Assembly (NCBI RefSeq): GCF_025370875.1
Contig: NZ_JAMXFD010000007.1
Location: forward strand, 1 to 64,000
Direction: 5' to 3'
DNA: 64,000 bases
From: Laspinema palackyanum D2c
GTDB taxonomy: Bacteria; Cyanobacteriota; Cyanobacteriia; Cyanobacteriales; Laspinemataceae
In this document: positions 43,036 to 51,650 of the stretch, piece after piece
Layout: every line of letters begins with the position of its first letter
How positions within the stretch are numbered: the stretch's first letter is position 1
The notes under the pieces: generated by a model
Told to the model about the DNA's origin: nothing
The model's input: the letters and a program-made list of their open reading frames with translations, nothing else
The model's database searches: none
Position numbers and translations under genes: made by a program

Positions 43036-44925
43036 ATGCCCTCCAAAAAACGTAATCGTGAAAACCTCCCCCCTTGGCTGAGTTTATTAGAGAAATTAAT
43101 CGCCATTATTGCCTTAGTTAACTTAGCCCTCGTCCTCTTTGACCTCAGCTACGTTCCAGGGCGAGACTTCTACCTCCGGGGGGATTTATTTTTAGAAAGA
43201 TTTAGAACCACCAAACGGGAAAAATATTTAACCAAAGTCGATCGCCTGCAAGTCCTCTTACAGCAAAATGGATTAGACGACCCCCAGGTGGAACCCTTAC
43301 TCGCCGAATTAAGGGAACAGAGTATTCAACTCGTCGATGAAGAACGATTTCGAGTCACGGGCAGTTATGGAGCCTTAGAAGAAATCAAAACTCGCATGGA
43401 AACCGCAATGGGGGCAGAAAATGCCACCCAAGCCTTCCTAGCCTTTTGGAATCGTGAATACTTAAATGCCGTCGGATGGCGGCAAGCGATGGATTTTTTT
43501 AATCGGGATATCCGATTTTTAATGACCTTTTATGAACCCCAACTGTTTTATGATGCCGTTAAAGGAATTGAACCTTATCGGGACACCCAAAACTATCTCC
43601 TCCTCGTTGATAGTCTGACCGTTGAGTTACAGCGGGATGGGTTGCAGTCGGACCGAGTAGAACCTTTACTGGGGCAATTGCGAGACCTCAGTACAGCGAT
43701 GATTAACCAAAATTTCTTTGAGCGGGCTCATAAAAATGGCACCTTAGAAGAGATTAAAAATAATATGCGCCGACATATTTATTCCCGCACCGAAGCGCGT
43801 CCCCAAGGTCCGCGATTGATTCTGGATGTCATCGAACTGTTAGCACCGGAAGTCCTCTGGGCAGACAAATCTTCTAGCAATGCTTTCCGAACGTTCTGGA
43901 GTCAGGAAAACTTCCAGGCCAACGGATGGGAAAATGAATTAGTCTTTTTTAATGAAGAGATTCGCTTTTCCATGCAATCGAATTATTTTAGGCATTATGG
44001 GATTGCCAATGAATATATTGATCGGTTTTGGCTGATTGATATCTTTTTTATGGCTATCTTCTTTGTGGACTTGTTATTTAGAAGCTGGTTAATTGTGCGC
44101 CGCCATCCCAATATGACGTTAGAAGGGGCGATTTTATGGCGATGGTATGATTTGATTTTGCTGATCCCCTTTTGGCGATGGTTGCGGGTGATTCCCGTGG
44201 TGATTCGACTCAATGAAGCCAATATCCTGAACATCGAGTGGGTGCAGAAACAAGCCCGCTTGGGGTTTGTGGCTAACTTTGCCAAAGAACTGACGGAAGT
44301 GGTGGTGGTTCAAACCATTAATCAAATGAAAGGGAGTGTTGAAAGTGGACAACTAACTCGGAGTTTATTAGAACCAGCGGAGAAAGAGTATATCGATATT
44401 AATGATATTAATGAAGTGCAAGCGATTTCTAGTCGATTGTTAGAGATTACCGTTTGTCGAGTTTTGCCGGAAGTGCAGCCGGATTTACAGGCGCTGCTGT
44501 CTCATCAGATGGAAAATACCATGAAATCCTCGGAGTTATATCGGAGGATTCAGCAGTTACCGGGGTTTGGGGATTTATCTCATCAAATGGCGGAACAGTT
44601 AGTCAAACGGGTATCCAGGCTGGTGACTGAGGGGCCAGAAAATGCTTATGAGGCGATCGTTCATGCACCCCCGGATCCAGTGGGGGAAAAATTAACTCAG
44701 CAACTGGTGGAACATTTCGGTAGTGCGTTGCGAAAAGAATTGCGAAGAGAAGATACCATCGGGGAATTTGAGTATTTGATTTCGTCCTTACTGGAAGAAA
44801 TTAAGGTTAACTACGTTCAACAAATGGAAGAATCAGACCCCGAGGACCTGTTTGACGAAACGGAAGCCATTCGCAAACGAGCGAGTAGCAATATCAAGCT
44901 ACCTGGAAAGAAAAAGAGGGGGTAG
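43036..44925 (+). CDS. Membrane protein with duplicated domain and voltage-sensor-like helices
   Basis: 629 residues, a cyanobacterial-looking conserved hypothetical. TM1 is at 20-38. Two copies of a soluble domain follow: copy A (about 63-165) and copy B (about 187-316), matching at VDxLxVxLQxxGLxxxxVEPLL, GxLEEIKxxM, FWxxExxxxxGW and FFNxxIRF. Then come TM2 (332-351, IDIFFMAIFFVDLLFRSWLIV) and TM3 (370-391, WYDLILLIPFWRWLRVIPVVIRL). TM2-TM3 with D-R and the R-x2-R-x6-R spacing recall the S3-S4 part of voltage-sensor ion channels, but no pore helix or selectivity filter is visible. A 230-residue C-terminal helical region (EKEYIDINDINEVQAIS on) ends in a basic GKKKRG. Function unknown. Confidence 0.8.
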   Translation: MPSKKRNRENLPPWLSLLEKLIAIIALVNLALVLFDLSYVPGRDFYLRGDLFLERFRTTKREKYLTKVDRLQVLLQQNGLDDPQVEPLLAELREQSIQLVDEERFRVTGSYGALEEIKTRMETAMGAENATQAFLAFWNREYLNAVGWRQAMDFFNRDIRFLMTFYEPQLFYDAVKGIEPYRDTQNYLLLVDSLTVELQRDGLQSDRVEPLLGQLRDLSTAMINQNFFERAHKNGTLEEIKNNMRRHIYSRTEARPQGPRLILDVIELLAPEVLWADKSSSNAFRTFWSQENFQANGWENELVFFNEEIRFSMQSNYFRHYGIANEYIDRFWLIDIFFMAIFFVDLLFRSWLIVRRHPNMTLEGAILWRWYDLILLIPFWRWLRVIPVVIRLNEANILNIEWVQKQARLGFVANFAKELTEVVVVQTINQMKGSVESGQLTRSLLEPAEKEYIDINDINEVQAISSRLLEITVCRVLPEVQPDLQALLSHQMENTMKSSELYRRIQQLPGFGDLSHQMAEQLVKRVSRLVTEGPENAYEAIVHAPPDPVGEKLTQQLVEHFGSALRKELRREDTIGEFEYLISSLLEEIKVNYVQQMEESDPEDLFDETEAIRKRASSNIKLPGKKKRG

Positions 44926-45265
44926 AGGAGTGAATTTTGTCGGTTGTCATTTGTCAAGAGACTAACAACCCATGACCAATGACCAACCACCCATGACCAG
45001 TTGAGACGAGATTCGGTCAATCCCTGGGGAGATCGTGTAAAATGGAACAAGAAAGGTATTCAACCACTAGATAGTTGAGAATAGGGGGCCGAACGGCCTG
45101 ACTATCGGAAAGCGTCTACTTCCTCCAGAGTGCGTTCAGTGCAGTTCTGAGAGGGGGGATGGCGATCGCCCCTGTCTAACCGGAAAATTCGCTCCTAAAA
45201 GACTGGCAGCTCCCAAACCGTAAGGATTTAATCCTATATTTCCCAGGCATCTGCGGATAATCGGA

Positions 45266-45271
45266 TATAAT
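45266..45271 (+). promoter_or_regulatory. TATAAT -10 candidate for the rimP operon
   Basis: A perfect TATAAT, but no good -35 lies 16-18 bp upstream. Transcription would start near 45278. Confidence 0.35.
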
Positions 45272-45470
45272 ATTCGACAAGAGTTGAAAATGGAGCAGCC
45301 ACTCGCGCCCGAGCTATGATTTTTCCGCCCTACCTTTGAGACTTCCGCTTTTGGTTGCCGAGGTGACGTGGATTCTTGAGTCTAAGAGGGTCCGAGTCTA
45401 ATCATCCTCATCGACCTTAAACCATCAACCGCTTTTGGAATCTGTCTAAAAGCTTTGCGGGATACCGCCT

Positions 45471-45492
45471 CTATCACCTTTGACGGTGATAG
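45471..45492 (+). promoter_or_regulatory. Leader hairpin
   Basis: Perfect 8-bp arms ctatcacc / ggtgatag with loop tttgac, about 70 bp before the leader terminator. It has no T-run and may be part of a regulatory RNA structure. Confidence 0.55.
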
Positions 45493-45560
45493 TGCTATCG
45501 TCACATTGTCCGGCGATTTCCGGACAAATGTCGCGTAAATGTATCAGTTATTTCGCTTTG

Positions 45561-45585
45561 AAGTGGGTCAACCCCCACTTTTTTT
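45561..45585 (+). terminator. Terminator/attenuator just before rimP
   Basis: Perfect 7-bp arms aagtggg (45561-45567) and cccactt (45574-45580), loop tcaacc, then an unbroken T-run to 45585. It ends 15 bp before the rimP ATG, with no gene close upstream. In that position it would stop transcripts entering rimP-nusA-infB, so attenuation is likely. Confidence 0.7.
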
Positions 45586-45600
45586 GTTCAAATCTGTCTC

Positions 45601-46065
45601 ATGACTCATCCCCTGATCCCTGAAATTATCGAAATCGCTACCCCCATCGCCGAGTCTCTCGGATTAGAAGTGGTGGCAGCGGTCTTTCATACCAACCTGA
45701 ATCCGCCCGTACTGCGAGTGGACATCCGCAACTACAGCACAGACACCAGTTTGGATGACTGCGAACGCATGAGCAAGGCGTTGGAAAGCAGCTTAGACGA
45801 AGGGGAGTTAATCCCGGACACCTACGTTTTAGAAATTTCCAGTCCTGGAATCTCGCGCCAGCTTACCACCGACCGAGAATTTATCTCATTCAAAGGGTTT
45901 CCCGCAGTCGTGGAAACCCTGGAACCCTATCAGGGGCATACAGAGTGGAAAGGTAGACTCGTGAAGCGGGACGAAACTGCTGTTTATCTCAACCGTAAAG
46001 GTCGAGTCACAGCAATTCCGCGACCCCTCATCAATAAAGTACAACTCGTAGATCGAGAAGAATAA
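45601..46065 (+). CDS. rimP: Ribosome maturation factor RimP
   Basis: 154 residues, needed for late 30S subunit maturation. The two-domain family pattern is clear: N-terminal alpha/beta domain ([28 protein letters not shown], then [36 protein letters not shown]) and a C-terminal SH3-like barrel ([20 protein letters not shown]). [15 protein letters not shown] is the family signature. It heads the conserved rimP-nusA-ylxR-infB order. The ATG at 45601 lies directly behind a terminator structure and has no good Shine-Dalgarno. Confidence 0.96.
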
Positions 46066-46305: not shown

Positions 46306-47568
46306 ATGGCAATGGTCAGCCTCCCCGGACTCCGGGAGATGATTGACAGTATCTCTCAAGAGCGAAACTTACCGAAGCAAGCCGTGCAAGCGGCACTGAG
46401 GGAAGCGCTTTTGAAAGGATACGAGCGCTACAGGCGCACGATTAGTATGGAAAAGATCCATTTCGATGAACACTTCTTCGATAATTTTGAAATCGAACTG
46501 GATATTGCAGAAGAAGGCTTTCGGGTCCTCTCTACAAAGACCATTGTGGAATTGGTCAGTAGTGGGGACCATGAGATTTCTTTAAAAGAGGTTCAGGAAG
46601 TCGCCGACGAAGCTCAACTGGGGGATACGGTGGTTTTGGATGTGACCCCAGACCAACGAGAATTTGGTCGAATGGCTGCGATTCAGACCAAGCAGGTGCT
46701 CCAGCAAAAGCTGCGGGATCAACAGCGCAAGATTGTGCAGGAAGAGTTTGAGGACTTAGAAAGCACGGTGTTGCAAGGGCGAGTCCTGCGATTCGATCGC
46801 CAGTCGGTGATTCTGGCCGTGAATAGTGGGTTTGGGCAACCGGAAGTGGAGGCGGAACTGCCAAAACGGGAACAGTTGCCGAACGATAATTATCGCGCGA
46901 ACACGACTATCAAGGTGTACTTGAAGAAAGTGCGGGAAGGCCCCAGCCGAGGCCCTCAGTTGTTGGTGTCTCGGGCGGATGCTGGGTTGGTGGTTTATCT
47001 GTTTGCCAACGAAGTGCCGGAAATTGAGGATGAGGTCGTGAGGATTGTCGCCGTAGCGCGGGAAGCCAATCCTCCCTCCCGTCATGTGGGACCCCGGACG
47101 AAAATAGCCGTGGATACCCTAGAGCGGGATGTAGACCCGGTGGGAGCCTGTATTGGAGCGCGGGGATCGCGGATCCAAGTCGTGGTCAACGAATTACGGG
47201 GAGAAAAAATCGACGTGATTCGGTGGTCACCGGATCCAGCGACTTATATTGCGAATGCGCTGAGTCCGGCTAAAGTGGATGAAGTCCGATTGGTGAATCC
47301 CGAAGCGAGACAGGCTCATGTTTTGGTTCCCGAGGATCAGTTGAGTTTGGCGATCGGGAAAGAAGGCCAGAATGTCCGTTTGGCAGCACGGTTAACTGGA
47401 TGGAAAATTGACATCAAGGATAGTGCGAAGTACGACTACGATTCTTCTTATGAGTCCTCTAGGGTTCAATCTTCCTACGAGGAAGAAGAGGACCTGGAGG
47501 AGGAAGTAGAGGAGTTAGATGAGCTAGAGGAAACTTCGACCGCCAGTTCAGTGCAAAGAACGGCTTGA
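46306..47568 (+). CDS. nusA: Transcription termination/antitermination factor NusA
   Basis: 420 residues. The N-terminal RNA polymerase-binding domain (1-125) begins MAMVSLPGLREMIDSISQERNLPKQAVQAALREALLKGYERYRR; an S1 domain follows (about 130-200, VLQGRVLRFDRQSVILAV) and two KH domains (about 225-365, VGACIGARGSRIQVVVNELRGEKIDVI; LAIGKEGQNVRLAARLTGWKIDI). The acidic tail (about 380-410, EEEEDLEEEVEELDELEE) stands in place of the C-terminal AR repeats of proteobacterial NusA, as in other cyanobacteria. I choose the ATG at 46306: GGAGG at 46293-46297 lies 8 nt upstream, while the frame open further upstream has no ribosome site and includes a dispersed palindrome. Confidence 0.95.
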   Translation: MAMVSLPGLREMIDSISQERNLPKQAVQAALREALLKGYERYRRTISMEKIHFDEHFFDNFEIELDIAEEGFRVLSTKTIVELVSSGDHEISLKEVQEVADEAQLGDTVVLDVTPDQREFGRMAAIQTKQVLQQKLRDQQRKIVQEEFEDLESTVLQGRVLRFDRQSVILAVNSGFGQPEVEAELPKREQLPNDNYRANTTIKVYLKKVREGPSRGPQLLVSRADAGLVVYLFANEVPEIEDEVVRIVAVAREANPPSRHVGPRTKIAVDTLERDVDPVGACIGARGSRIQVVVNELRGEKIDVIRWSPDPATYIANALSPAKVDEVRLVNPEARQAHVLVPEDQLSLAIGKEGQNVRLAARLTGWKIDIKDSAKYDYDSSYESSRVQSSYEEEEDLEEEVEELDELEETSTASSVQRTA

Positions 47569-47782: not shown

Positions 47783-48070
47783 ATGAAACCAAACTACCGA
47801 CGTTGTATTAGTTGCCGTAAAGTTGCACCGAAAGAAGCCTTCTGGCGTATCGTCAAACTCTACCCATCGGATCAGGTACAATTAGATACAGGTATGGGGC
47901 GTTCGGCCTATCTTTGTCCAGAAGCCTCTTGCCTGAAAACGGCTCAAAAGAAAAATAGACTGGGGCGATCGCTTAAAGCAGCGGTTCCCCCGGAACTGTA
48001 TTCCAACCTATGGCAACGGTTACCCCTGAGCGCTCAATCCGAGCACCGGGGAGCAACCCCAACCCAATAA
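47783..48070 (+). CDS. ylxR: YlxR family RNA-binding protein
   Basis: About 95 residues. The DUF448/YlxR core is MKPNYRRCISCRKVAPKEAFWRIVKL with the two-Cys CxxC element and the basic face, then GRSAYLCPEASCLKTAQKKNRLGRSL with the GRSAYLC signature. YlxR (RnpM) lies between nusA and infB in most bacteria; in some Firmicutes it binds RNase P RNA and modulates it. I start at the ATG at 47783, which gives the usual family N-terminus; a TTG 24 codons earlier keeps the frame open but adds residues unlike the family. No strong Shine-Dalgarno is visible for either. Confidence 0.88.
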   Translation: MKPNYRRCISCRKVAPKEAFWRIVKLYPSDQVQLDTGMGRSAYLCPEASCLKTAQKKNRLGRSLKAAVPPELYSNLWQRLPLSAQSEHRGATPTQ

Positions 48071-48476: not shown

Positions 48477-51400
48477 ATGAACAACGGAAAAGTGAGAATA
48501 TACGAGTTATCACGGGAATTGAATTTGGAAAACAGAGACATTTTGGCAGTTTGCGAACAACTGAACATTCCAGTTAAAAGCCACAGTAGTACCATCTCAG
48601 AAGATGAGGCCCAGCGCATCGAAAAATTCGTCATGAATCATCCAGAAAAAGCGAATGGAGCCGCCAAAACCAAAGAAAAACAAGCGGCCTCAGAACTGGG
48701 AAACCCCTCAAACGCTAAGAAAAAACAGGAAATTTTGGAAATCCGAAAACAACCTTACCGCAATAATAACAATCAAGTTGGGGGACAAACCCTATTAGAA
48801 GACAGTGGCTTCCCCAATGCCCACAGCTCATCCGATGCCAATCAAAATAAGCAGATGATGTTGAATCGACCTGTGCGTAGTAACGACAGCGATCCCAGTC
48901 TACCGGACTCCCAAAACCTAGAAGAGGAATTCTCCGCTCAGGACGAGGCCAATACTCCGGCCCTCGCCCCAGAGCGCAACCCAGAGCGGGTCTCGGAACC
49001 CCAAGGGGATCACAGGGACGGCAATAATCCGATCTCTGAGGAAGAATTGCAAGAACTGCAAGCTCCCCCCGTCCGCCCCGTCCGTTCCTCTGAACGGAAA
49101 ATTGACTCCGGTAAATTGGACCGACCTGTACTCAAACCCCCGTCCAAGAAAGACGACAGTCCCTCCCCAGCAGCGGCGAAAACTCCTAGCCCCAGTAGCC
49201 CAGGAGCGCCTCGCGCAGCCAAGCCCGGAGCGCCCACTCGCCCAGCGCCCTCTGCGCCCTCTGCGCCCTCTGCGCCGACCCCATCCGTCAGTAAGGAAGG
49301 GGATTCCCGTCGAGAAAGTCCCCAGGCTGGGATTGCACCTAAGCCGAAACCCGTGACGGAACTCGTGCGCCCCCGTCGCTCCGGGCCAGGGGATACTGTC
49401 ATTGCCAAAGGCAAGGATTTACGCGATCGCGCCTCGTCGGATGAAGACGTCTCTAACACTGAGCCGGAATCCTTCTCTGAGGACGATAACGAAACTCCAC
49501 GTCCTCAACTGAAAGCTCCCCCTCGTCCTCCCAAGCGTTTGAAAAAACGCAAGGAAGAAGAAGACGAAATGCAAGACTTAGATGAAAAAGCCGGTAAGGG
49601 CGTGGCCAAATCTAAGCGGCGACTCAAGCCTCTGGCTGATGAGGATGATGATGACTATGAAAGCGATTTAGATACGGATGAATCCTCAGATACCGCTCTG
49701 AGCCTGTCGATCGCCCGTCCGCCTAAACCCAAAACGGCCCCGGCTCCCCGGACTGGTGCCATCATTACCGCCCGTCAAACCAAAAAACCCAATACCAATC
49801 GCGACTCTTCCGGCAGTAGTAAATCTCGGGGCCGTCGTCAAGAAAAAACTGAGAAAAAAGAACGTCCAGACCATATTGTCATCACTCAAGCGATGACTGT
49901 CCGAGAACTGGCTAATGCCTTGGCTGTTCCTGAAACCGATATCGTCAAAACCCTCTTCTTCAAAGGGATTGCCGTTAACATCACTCAAACCCTGGATATT
50001 CCCTCGGCCAAAATGGTCGCCGAAGAACTAGAGGTCACCGTCGAGATCGCCGTCGCTGAATCCGAAGCGAAAAAGGTCAGCGAGATGATCGATATCAGCG
50101 ACCTGGAAAGCCTCCAGATTCGTCCGCCTGTAGTGACGATTATGGGCCACGTGGACCACGGAAAAACGACCCTCCTCGACTCCATTCGGAAAACGAAGGT
50201 GGCTCAAGGAGAAGCCGGTGGGATTACCCAACATATCGGGGCCTATCATGTCGATGTGGAACATAAAGGCAATATGCATCAAGTCGTCTTCCTGGATACT
50301 CCGGGTCACGAAGCCTTTACGGCAATGCGTGCTCGCGGAACCCGGGTGACGGATATTGCGGTTCTTGTTGTAGCTGCGGATGATGGGGTCCAACCTCAAA
50401 CGATTGAGGCGATTAGCCATGCCAAAGCGGCTAAAGTGCCGATTGTAGTTGCCATCAACAAAATCGATAAGCCGGATTCTGATTTAAACCGTGTTAAGCA
50501 GGAACTGATGAATTACGGTCTGGTCCCCGAAGAATTCGGCGGAGACACGATTATGGTTCCGGTGAGTGCGATTCAAGGGCAGAACTTGGATACCCTGCTA
50601 GAGATGATTATCTTGGTGGCAGAAATCGAAGAAATCTCGGCTAACCCCAATCGCGCCGCGAAAGGGACCGTGATTGAGGCCCATTTGGATAAAGCTCGCG
50701 GTCCGGTGGCTACCCTGCTGGTGCAAAATGGCACCCTGCATATTGGGGATATTTTGGTCGCAGGCTCCACAATGGGTAAAGTCCGGGCAATGGTGGGCGA
50801 TCGCGGCGATCGCGTCGAAGTCGCTACCCCGTCCTTTGCTGTCGAAGTCTTGGGCTTAAACGAGGTCCCCTCTGCCGGGGATGAGTTCGATGTCTTCCCG
50901 AATGAAAAAGATGCTCGGGCCGTTGCTGACGATCGCGCCGATGTCAATCGCGAAACTCGTCTCAATCAAGCCCTCAACTCTCGTCGGGTCACCCTCAACA
51001 GCCTCAGCGCTCGCGCTCAAGAAGGTCAGCTCAAAGAACTCAACCTGATTCTGAAAGCCGACGTTCAAGGCTCCATCGAAGCCATCATTGGCTCCTTAAA
51101 ACAACTCCCCCAAAATGAAGTCCAAGTCCGCGTCCTCTTGGCCGCGCCTGGAGAAGTCTCCGAAACAGACGTTGACCTCGCTGCCGCTTCTGATGCAGTG
51201 ATTGTTGGGTTTAACACCACCTTCGCCAGCGGTGCACGTCAGGCTGCTGACCGCGCTGGGGTTGATGTTCGCGAATACAACATCATCTATAACCTCCTGG
51301 ATGATATCCAAGGGGCAATGGAAGGTCTCCTGGATCCTGAATTGATTGAGGAACCCCTCGGTCAGGCCGAAGTCCGGGTGGTCTTCCAAATCGGTCGCGG

Positions 51401-51650
51401 TGCTGTCGCAGGCTGTTATGTGCTCTCCGGTAAAATGATCCGTAACTGTAAGGTGCGGGTTCATCGCAAGGGAGAGGTCATCTATGAAGGTGTTCTCGAC
51501 TCTCTCAAACGGGTTAAGGATGATGCCAAGGAAGTCAATAGTGGCTTTGAATGCGGTATCGGTATTGATAAGTTCAGTACCTGGCTCGAAGGAGATACCA
51601 TCGAAGCCTATCGGATGGTCACCAAGCGCCGCACTCTTTCCCCCGCTTAA
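48477..51650 (+). CDS. infB: Translation initiation factor IF-2
   Basis: 1057 residues; GTPase that places fMet-tRNA on the 30S subunit and drives subunit joining. Order: IF2_N-type domain at 1-60 ([36 protein letters not shown]), a very long charged/Pro-Ala low-complexity region (about 60-465, including [10 protein letters not shown]), a second IF2_N domain (about 475-525, [25 protein letters not shown]), then the GTPase domain with GHVDHGKT (557-564), DTPGH (607-611) and NKID (661-664), and domains II-IV ending in [10 protein letters not shown] and a domain IV barrel. CGGAGG at 48467-48472 lies 4 nt before the ATG. Long N-terminal extensions are usual in cyanobacterial IF-2. Confidence 0.98.

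Follow-up and report, generated by a model that had tools for sequence, protein, structure and literature searches.

In the window, by which we mean the entire 64,000-nucleotide stretch of DNA analysed here, an intrinsic terminator hairpin upstream of rimP represents, as judged from its sequence and its relatives, the rimP-leader attenuator in its cyanobacterial form and appears to have been conserved in cyanobacteria since long ago. The explanation of the whole locus which we consider probable is that of a rimP-leader attenuator, most likely tuned by NusA, whose native leader has been exchanged in this strain for an element derived from an IS607/TnpB transposon. The hairpin heads a group of genes essential for protein synthesis which, according to Pfam, are arranged on one strand in the order rimP-nusA-ylxR-infB:

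45560 to 45585, plus strand: rimP-leader terminator/attenuator (5' arm 45560-45567, loop 45568-45573, 3' arm 45574-45581, T-run 45579-45585)
45601 to 46065, plus strand: rimP (Pfam RimP_N, DUF150_C)
46306 to 47568, plus strand: nusA (Pfam NusA_N, KH_5; start 46306 picked by eye, a longer open reading frame running from 46174)
47783 to 48070, plus strand: ylxR (Pfam YlxR; start picked by eye)
48477 to 51650, plus strand: infB, encoding IF-2 (Pfam IF-2, GTP_EFTU, IF2_N)
43036 to 44925, same strand as rimP: upstream gene of 629 amino acids, without Pfam match, with homologues upstream of rimP in relatives

The stem of the hairpin, GAAGTGGG / CCCACTTT, comprises eight pairs including one G-T, its loop reads TCAACC, and seven T occupy positions 45579-45585. 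The inner 7-bp helix AAGTGGG/CCCACTT is perfect, as the preliminary description of this DNA had stated for a stem with T-run (45561-45585) in front of the rimP ATG (45601), from which the T-run is separated by 15 bp. Its further statement that no gene lies upstream on this strand for more than 600 bp holds as well, the nearest one ending at 44925 and thus leaving a gap of 635 bp. Within this gap heptamer-like CAATGACCA/CATGACCA repeats are seen at 44960-45000, of which several congeners possess longer arrays. The calculated folding energy of the hairpin amounts to -10.8 kcal/mol (z -2.6, with 2 of 200 shuffles folding equally well), and a terminator scan of 801 bases yields one terminator compared to a mean of 0.8 in shuffled sequences, which is not above chance. 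By itself the hairpin is hence modest, and we count it as real because it is conserved at the same place in relatives. Termination in vivo would be expected at about position 45585.

Conservation was assessed in a set of 29 genomes consisting of the own genome and 28 relatives, a RimP match being obtained in 28 of them. The exact pattern AGTGGG-N3-8-CCC[AG]C-TTTTTT is present in 27 of the 29 genomes, each of which has one site 5' of rimP and on the same strand. Of the 28 RimP-bearing genomes, 27 thereby keep the hairpin next to this gene, which is the outcome on which the preliminary description had made its reading depend, while the remaining one (G027, locus L056) has GGTGGG in place of AGTGGG. 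G009, a relative from the same family, shows neither a RimP match nor the hairpin pattern. The association is also specific, as 27 of all 31 exact-pattern sites in the 29 genomes are located at rimP (the other four occur in G018, G019, G025 and G026) and the reversed control pattern is found only once across the entire set. Throughout the window's genus the hairpin is identical in 8/8 genomes, and so is the stretch from AGTTATTTCGC through the rimP start, save a single T/A difference in L038. G014 has its hairpin about 1.6 kb 5' of rimP because a gene coding for OrfB/TnpB (L137:972-2057) intervenes.

A phylum-wide search for RimP matched 53 of 59 genomes. Loci were listed for 30 of these matches, seven of them already belonging to the genome set, and the loci examined in addition numbered 14 in the same class and nine in other classes. 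Together with the 28 loci of the genome set the former constitute 42 class-level rimP loci, 38 of which contain a wider pattern, [AG]GTGGG-N3-10-CCC[AG]C[TC], at most 150 nt away from rimP. G014 carries it in the displaced position just described, and three loci (L121, L124 and L125) lack it within the 1500 nt examined. The distance to rimP is not fixed, since the terminator is 100-150 nt off in L119, L123 and some others. Among the nine loci from other classes the motif is present in three (L129, L130 and L133), where the stem is extended as AGAGTGGG..CCC[AG]CTCT, and absent from six. Removal of six near-identical congeners from the 42 loci leaves 36 non-redundant leaders, in all of which the GTGGG/CCC[AG]C core is paired, a result which is partly circular as the selection pattern contains this core. 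At the fourth arm position, which adjoins the core, T-A is observed in 20 and T-G in 16 of these leaders, and at the outer pair 30 leaders have A-T and three have G-C.

A precedent for such a hairpin exists. According to Naville & Gautheret 2010 (PMC2965389), the rimP-leader is the most widespread attenuator, found in Firmicutes, in Gammaproteobacteria and in “the majority of species”, and consists of a terminator whose stem reads GGGc(...)gCCC, with no antiterminator; NusA is proposed there as the best candidate for its regulator, and the string “cyanobact” does not occur in the main text of that article. For E. coli, terminators upstream of rimP and autoregulation of the operon by NusA have been described (PMC6511841). 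With two intrinsic terminators from Synechococcus elongatus, stimulation by NusA was observed in vitro in a study whose relevant part makes no mention of rimP (PMC13289151). The hairpin described here resembles the published rimP-leader (PMC2965389) in being a short terminator 5' of rimP-nusA-infB with a G-rich 5' arm, a C-rich 3' arm and a T-run, in its distance to the gene start (4-130 nt in the published leaders, 15 bp in the window), in the lack of both a larger conserved element and a visible antiterminator, and in the conservation of a rimP-specific GGG(...)CCC core. It differs in that the cyanobacterial core reads AGTGGGT...CCC[AG]CT compared to the published GGGc(...)gCCC. The lower-case c...g is not found, as the window has GGGT...CCCC and most relatives have T after GGG, and the hairpin is therefore filed as a variant; moreover, the window's upstream leader is transposon-derived. 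The Rfam family RF01770 shares name and place with the hairpin, but its 102-position model does not recognise it: in none of the 29 genomes is the gathering cut-off of 47 bits exceeded, and among the matches listed up to E 1 none is located at rimP and none lies in the own genome. Membership in RF01770 is accordingly rejected, and the published precedent taken together with this failure leads us to classify this hairpin as a cyanobacterial variant of the rimP-leader in its general form. Within the literature searched on rimP-leader, IS607/MITE in cyanobacteria, non-autonomous TnpB, cyanobacterial attenuation and mobile elements of Laspinema (articles proper), no published account of a cyanobacterial rimP attenuator or of the element described below was found.

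Upstream of the hairpin the window deviates conspicuously from its congeners:

45036 to 45045, plus strand: candidate native -10 region TGTAAAATGG, kept in 8/8 genomes of the genus, 5' of the replaced segment
45221 to 45547, plus strand: 327-bp miniature (non-autonomous) element from an IS607-type tnpA/tnpB transposon, as judged from own-genome copies and alignment with the insertion sequence
45266 to 45271, plus strand: TATAAT, candidate -10 box in the left end of the element, intact in 18/21 aligned copies, with no good -35
45431 to 45547, plus strand: part derived from the 3' end of tnpB plus right end, presumed reRNA/omega-RNA scaffold, containing a hairpin at 45471-45492
45548 to 45567, plus strand: flank after the right end, would-be reRNA guide by position and by analogy with IS607 TnpB (PMC10711439)

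Searched with 45220-45548 at the DNA level, the own genome revealed three further near-full copies of the element (85-88%) and one part copy, the latter being the 3' end of tnpB behind a MerR/resolvase tnpA, i.e. an IS607 transposon. Positions 45431-45547 are 85.6% identical to the tnpB 3' end of this own-genome IS607 copy (L005/L061). In alignment with L061 the right part (query 216-333) shows the same 85.6% and the left end 71% over query 11-73, which is a weak match (E 6e-4), while an internal tnpB piece (query 103-158) has its counterpart in other full IS607 copies. As left end, short tnpB piece and tnpB 3'/right end all align, the element is a miniature derivative that has undergone internal deletion. 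The TnpA of L061 contains the Pfam domains MerR and Resolvase, its TnpB HTH_OrfB_IS605 and Cas12f1-like_TNB, with OrfB_IS605 remaining below its own cut-off. This TnpB has DPG at RuvC-I (ALDPGVRTF), one of the two pro-Fanzor marks, the other being a shifted glutamate. L061 shares with IS607/TnpB transposons, in particular with the cyanobacterial “pro-Fanzor” TnpBs treated in PMC10711439, the MerR-HTH plus resolvase TnpA, the OrfB/TNB TnpB and the DPG; insertion at a fixed dinucleotide (AG) is a further likeness. Unlike these transposons, the window element lacks tnpA and most of tnpB and has kept just the ends.

Non-autonomous members of the TnpB family and stand-alone guide RNAs are represented by PATEs and trans-encoded omega-RNAs. 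The window element has in common with them the ends and the guide-RNA part without protein genes, and differs in being derived from IS607, in having a TATAAT of its own and in recurring in front of housekeeping genes. A DNA query matched 11 of 59 genomes, with full copies in the window's genus (Laspinema group) alone and matches to the 3' part also in G011, G012, G014 and G038. In a species-level genome collection, outside which the own genome perhaps falls, a 28-letter element-specific pattern found 22 stretches, all of them in records named Laspinema, Oscillatoria (two) or Phormidium pseudopriestleyi. The family comprises the window copy (45221-45547), L002-L004, L007-L031 and L071-L092, and 21 full copies were aligned. 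These are too alike for covariation to serve as proof of an RNA structure, as there are few compensatory changes and several broken pairs. One locus, L064 (G006:C347), has a longer form in which query 8-235 and 219-336 are separated by about 130 bases, and in the shortened forms L066 and L067 query 119-150 and 231-334 alone are recognisable.

The 38 rows of full copies, some of them duplicated records, represent 12 sites if two forms of a phycobilisome site are counted as one. Eleven of these precede a gene on the same strand, L010 being the site without one, and some are common to several species. At nine sites the next same-strand open reading frame starts no more than about 65 nt before or after the right end; the genes are rimP, ahcY, a STAS-domain gene, sepF, infC, fabF, a phycobilisome gene, a PsbZ-like gene before ribH and a coiled-coil gene (the PsbZ and coiled-coil genes were named by eye). 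At two sites the distance is 349 and 404 nt, the genes encoding adenylosuccinate lyase and a response regulator. We do not take this orientation as proof of promoter use: full IS607 copies, inspected by eye at 23 loci, mostly face same-strand open reading frames too (at least four look inserted in one and at least five face one on the opposite strand) and the GAG site may favour purine-rich leaders, so that 11 of 12 is no formal evidence.

Comparison of filled with empty sites demonstrates that insertion takes place after GAG and that, barring point changes, one AG is kept per junction (ahcY, three filled and five empty; infC, three and four; STAS-domain gene, five and three). The right junction at rimP coincides with the native GAG/TTATTT site (AG), the slash denoting the point of insertion. 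At the left junction the window reads CCG (CG) where six of seven congeners have GAG/T and L036 has GAG/A. In the congeners these two sites are 407-409 nt apart. The native leader of about 440 nt to which this segment belongs (L039:1010-1449 and the same place in L034-L040) is retained by all seven congeners with 88-93% identity, and it has no match in the own genome nor in any of the 21 genomes of other genera; the element is present at rimP in the window's genome and absent from rimP in the seven congeners. As the native segment is gone here yet present in 7/7 congeners, the element stands in place of about 408 nt of native leader. The simplest history would be one integration followed by a recombinase-made deletion between two GAG/T sites, the enzyme of this exchange probably being an IS607 serine recombinase. 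The rimP terminator was spared, the right end of the element lying 12 nt 5' of the hairpin. That the terminator was kept while the leader was swapped suggests that the terminator is the part that matters.

Given this arrangement, the hairpin might end an independent small RNA and precede rimP incidentally, the RNA being a stand-alone TnpB guide RNA in the window and the conserved leader RNA of about 440 nt in the congeners. The window element indeed combines a promoter-like box with a reRNA-like 3' part that ends just before the hairpin, region 45440-45600 folds with z -4.6, and the congeners preserve their leader to the extent given above. The hairpin, however, is found class-wide beside rimP while the RNA upstream of it differs between genera, and element and attenuator have separate histories. 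Rfam yields no match in the entire window at gathering scores, just two weak, irrelevant ones in 44900-45700 up to E 5, and for the native leader copy L036 nothing but chance matches to a repeat tract; neither tRNA nor tmRNA is detected in the window or in eight relative loci. We therefore judge an independent small RNA unlikely.

A role of the leader as riboswitch or antiterminator switch, with upstream RNA pairing to the terminator arm, likewise seems improbable to us. In favour of such a switch, the 80 nt 5' of the hairpin on average fold better than shuffled sequences (mean z -1.78; 25 of 36 leaders below -1), and in 13 of the 36 non-redundant leaders a CTTCT box with GAAG-like surroundings, often ACTTCTTGGAAGA, is located 22-27 nt 5' of the hairpin (loci L034-L042, L053, L056, L114-L118, L120, L122 and L137). 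Inspected by eye, many leaders display a TACACT-like box 70-100 nt 5' of the hairpin, followed by a variable hairpin and the terminator. In 34 leaders, however, the 60 nt upstream pair with the 5' arm no more strongly than shuffled sequences do (mean z 0.10; four of 34 below -1). Antiterminator pairing is rejected on these grounds, in agreement with the preliminary description, which had found no obvious partner for this arm. In addition, the window keeps its terminator although the CTTCT box has vanished with the native leader. The hairpin at 45471-45492, considered earlier as a possible part of a switch, is indeed present in the sequence but belongs to the 327-bp element which the seven congeners do not have at rimP, and the strong fold of 45440-45600 is likewise due to the inserted element and not to a rimP switch.

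We consider it very unlikely that the hairpin simply terminates transcription of the upstream gene (43036-44925), or an unlinked transcript from upstream, without any role for rimP. Synteny is common, a homologue of this gene lying on the same strand at 25 of the 38 hairpin-bearing class-level loci, but it is absent from the other 13, at L050, L059 and L114 the nearest large upstream open reading frame is divergent with the hairpin kept, the hairpin is 635 bp away from the upstream gene in the window versus 15 bp from rimP, and its core sequence is conserved far beyond the needs of a plain terminator. As it persists with a different or divergent upstream gene, it serves rimP, and the hairpin-bearing loci without the upstream gene lead us to reject the view that it is just the terminator of the latter. 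The preliminary proposal that an unattached terminator at this place works as a leader attenuator is supported by the conservation with rimP and remains the best reading.

The least probable of the possibilities considered, to which we assign a very slight chance, is that the element family constitutes a mobile promoter-leader of growth genes and that at rimP TnpB on the nascent leader acts as antiterminator of nusA-infB: in IS607 TnpB the guide is placed after the right end (PMC10711439), by analogy with which the guide would occupy the 20 nt following the element (45548-45567); since the 5' arm of the terminator falls entirely within them, a bound chromosomal TnpB would keep the terminator from forming. 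If the idea of a mobile promoter-leader were true, an IS607/TnpB remnant with its own start and guide scaffold would serve rimP, infC, ahcY, fabF and others.

For the attenuator, which we prefer, the following course of events may be envisaged. RNA polymerase starting 5' of rimP would meet the GUGGG...CCC[AG]C hairpin and the U-run before the start codon, where some polymerases would stop while the remainder would go on to transcribe rimP-nusA-ylxR-infB. NusA, a product of this very operon, would most likely aid termination at the hairpin and thus provide negative feedback without any antiterminator RNA; by analogy with the published cases such feedback on the window terminator is plausible. 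In the window strain the leader appears to have been exchanged by recombination at two GAG/T sites about 408 bp apart. The start of transcription may originally have been directed by TGTAAAATGG (45036-45045) as native -10 region, and the TATAAT of the element may now supply rimP transcription as a putative promoter, although the promoter scan found no two-hexamer promoter.

As cyanobacteria do without Rho (PMC13289151), hairpin termination and NusA should weigh more in these organisms, and with an attenuator of class-wide occurrence preceding the nusA operon, NusA feedback could be tested directly in a phylum without Rho. The window strain represents a natural experiment in which the promoter-proximal leader appears to have been swapped for the remnant of an RNA-guided-nuclease transposon while the attenuator was kept. 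Finally, the recurrence of a miniature IS607/TnpB element in front of housekeeping genes renders the idea that transposon guide RNAs may be recruited as leaders a testable one.
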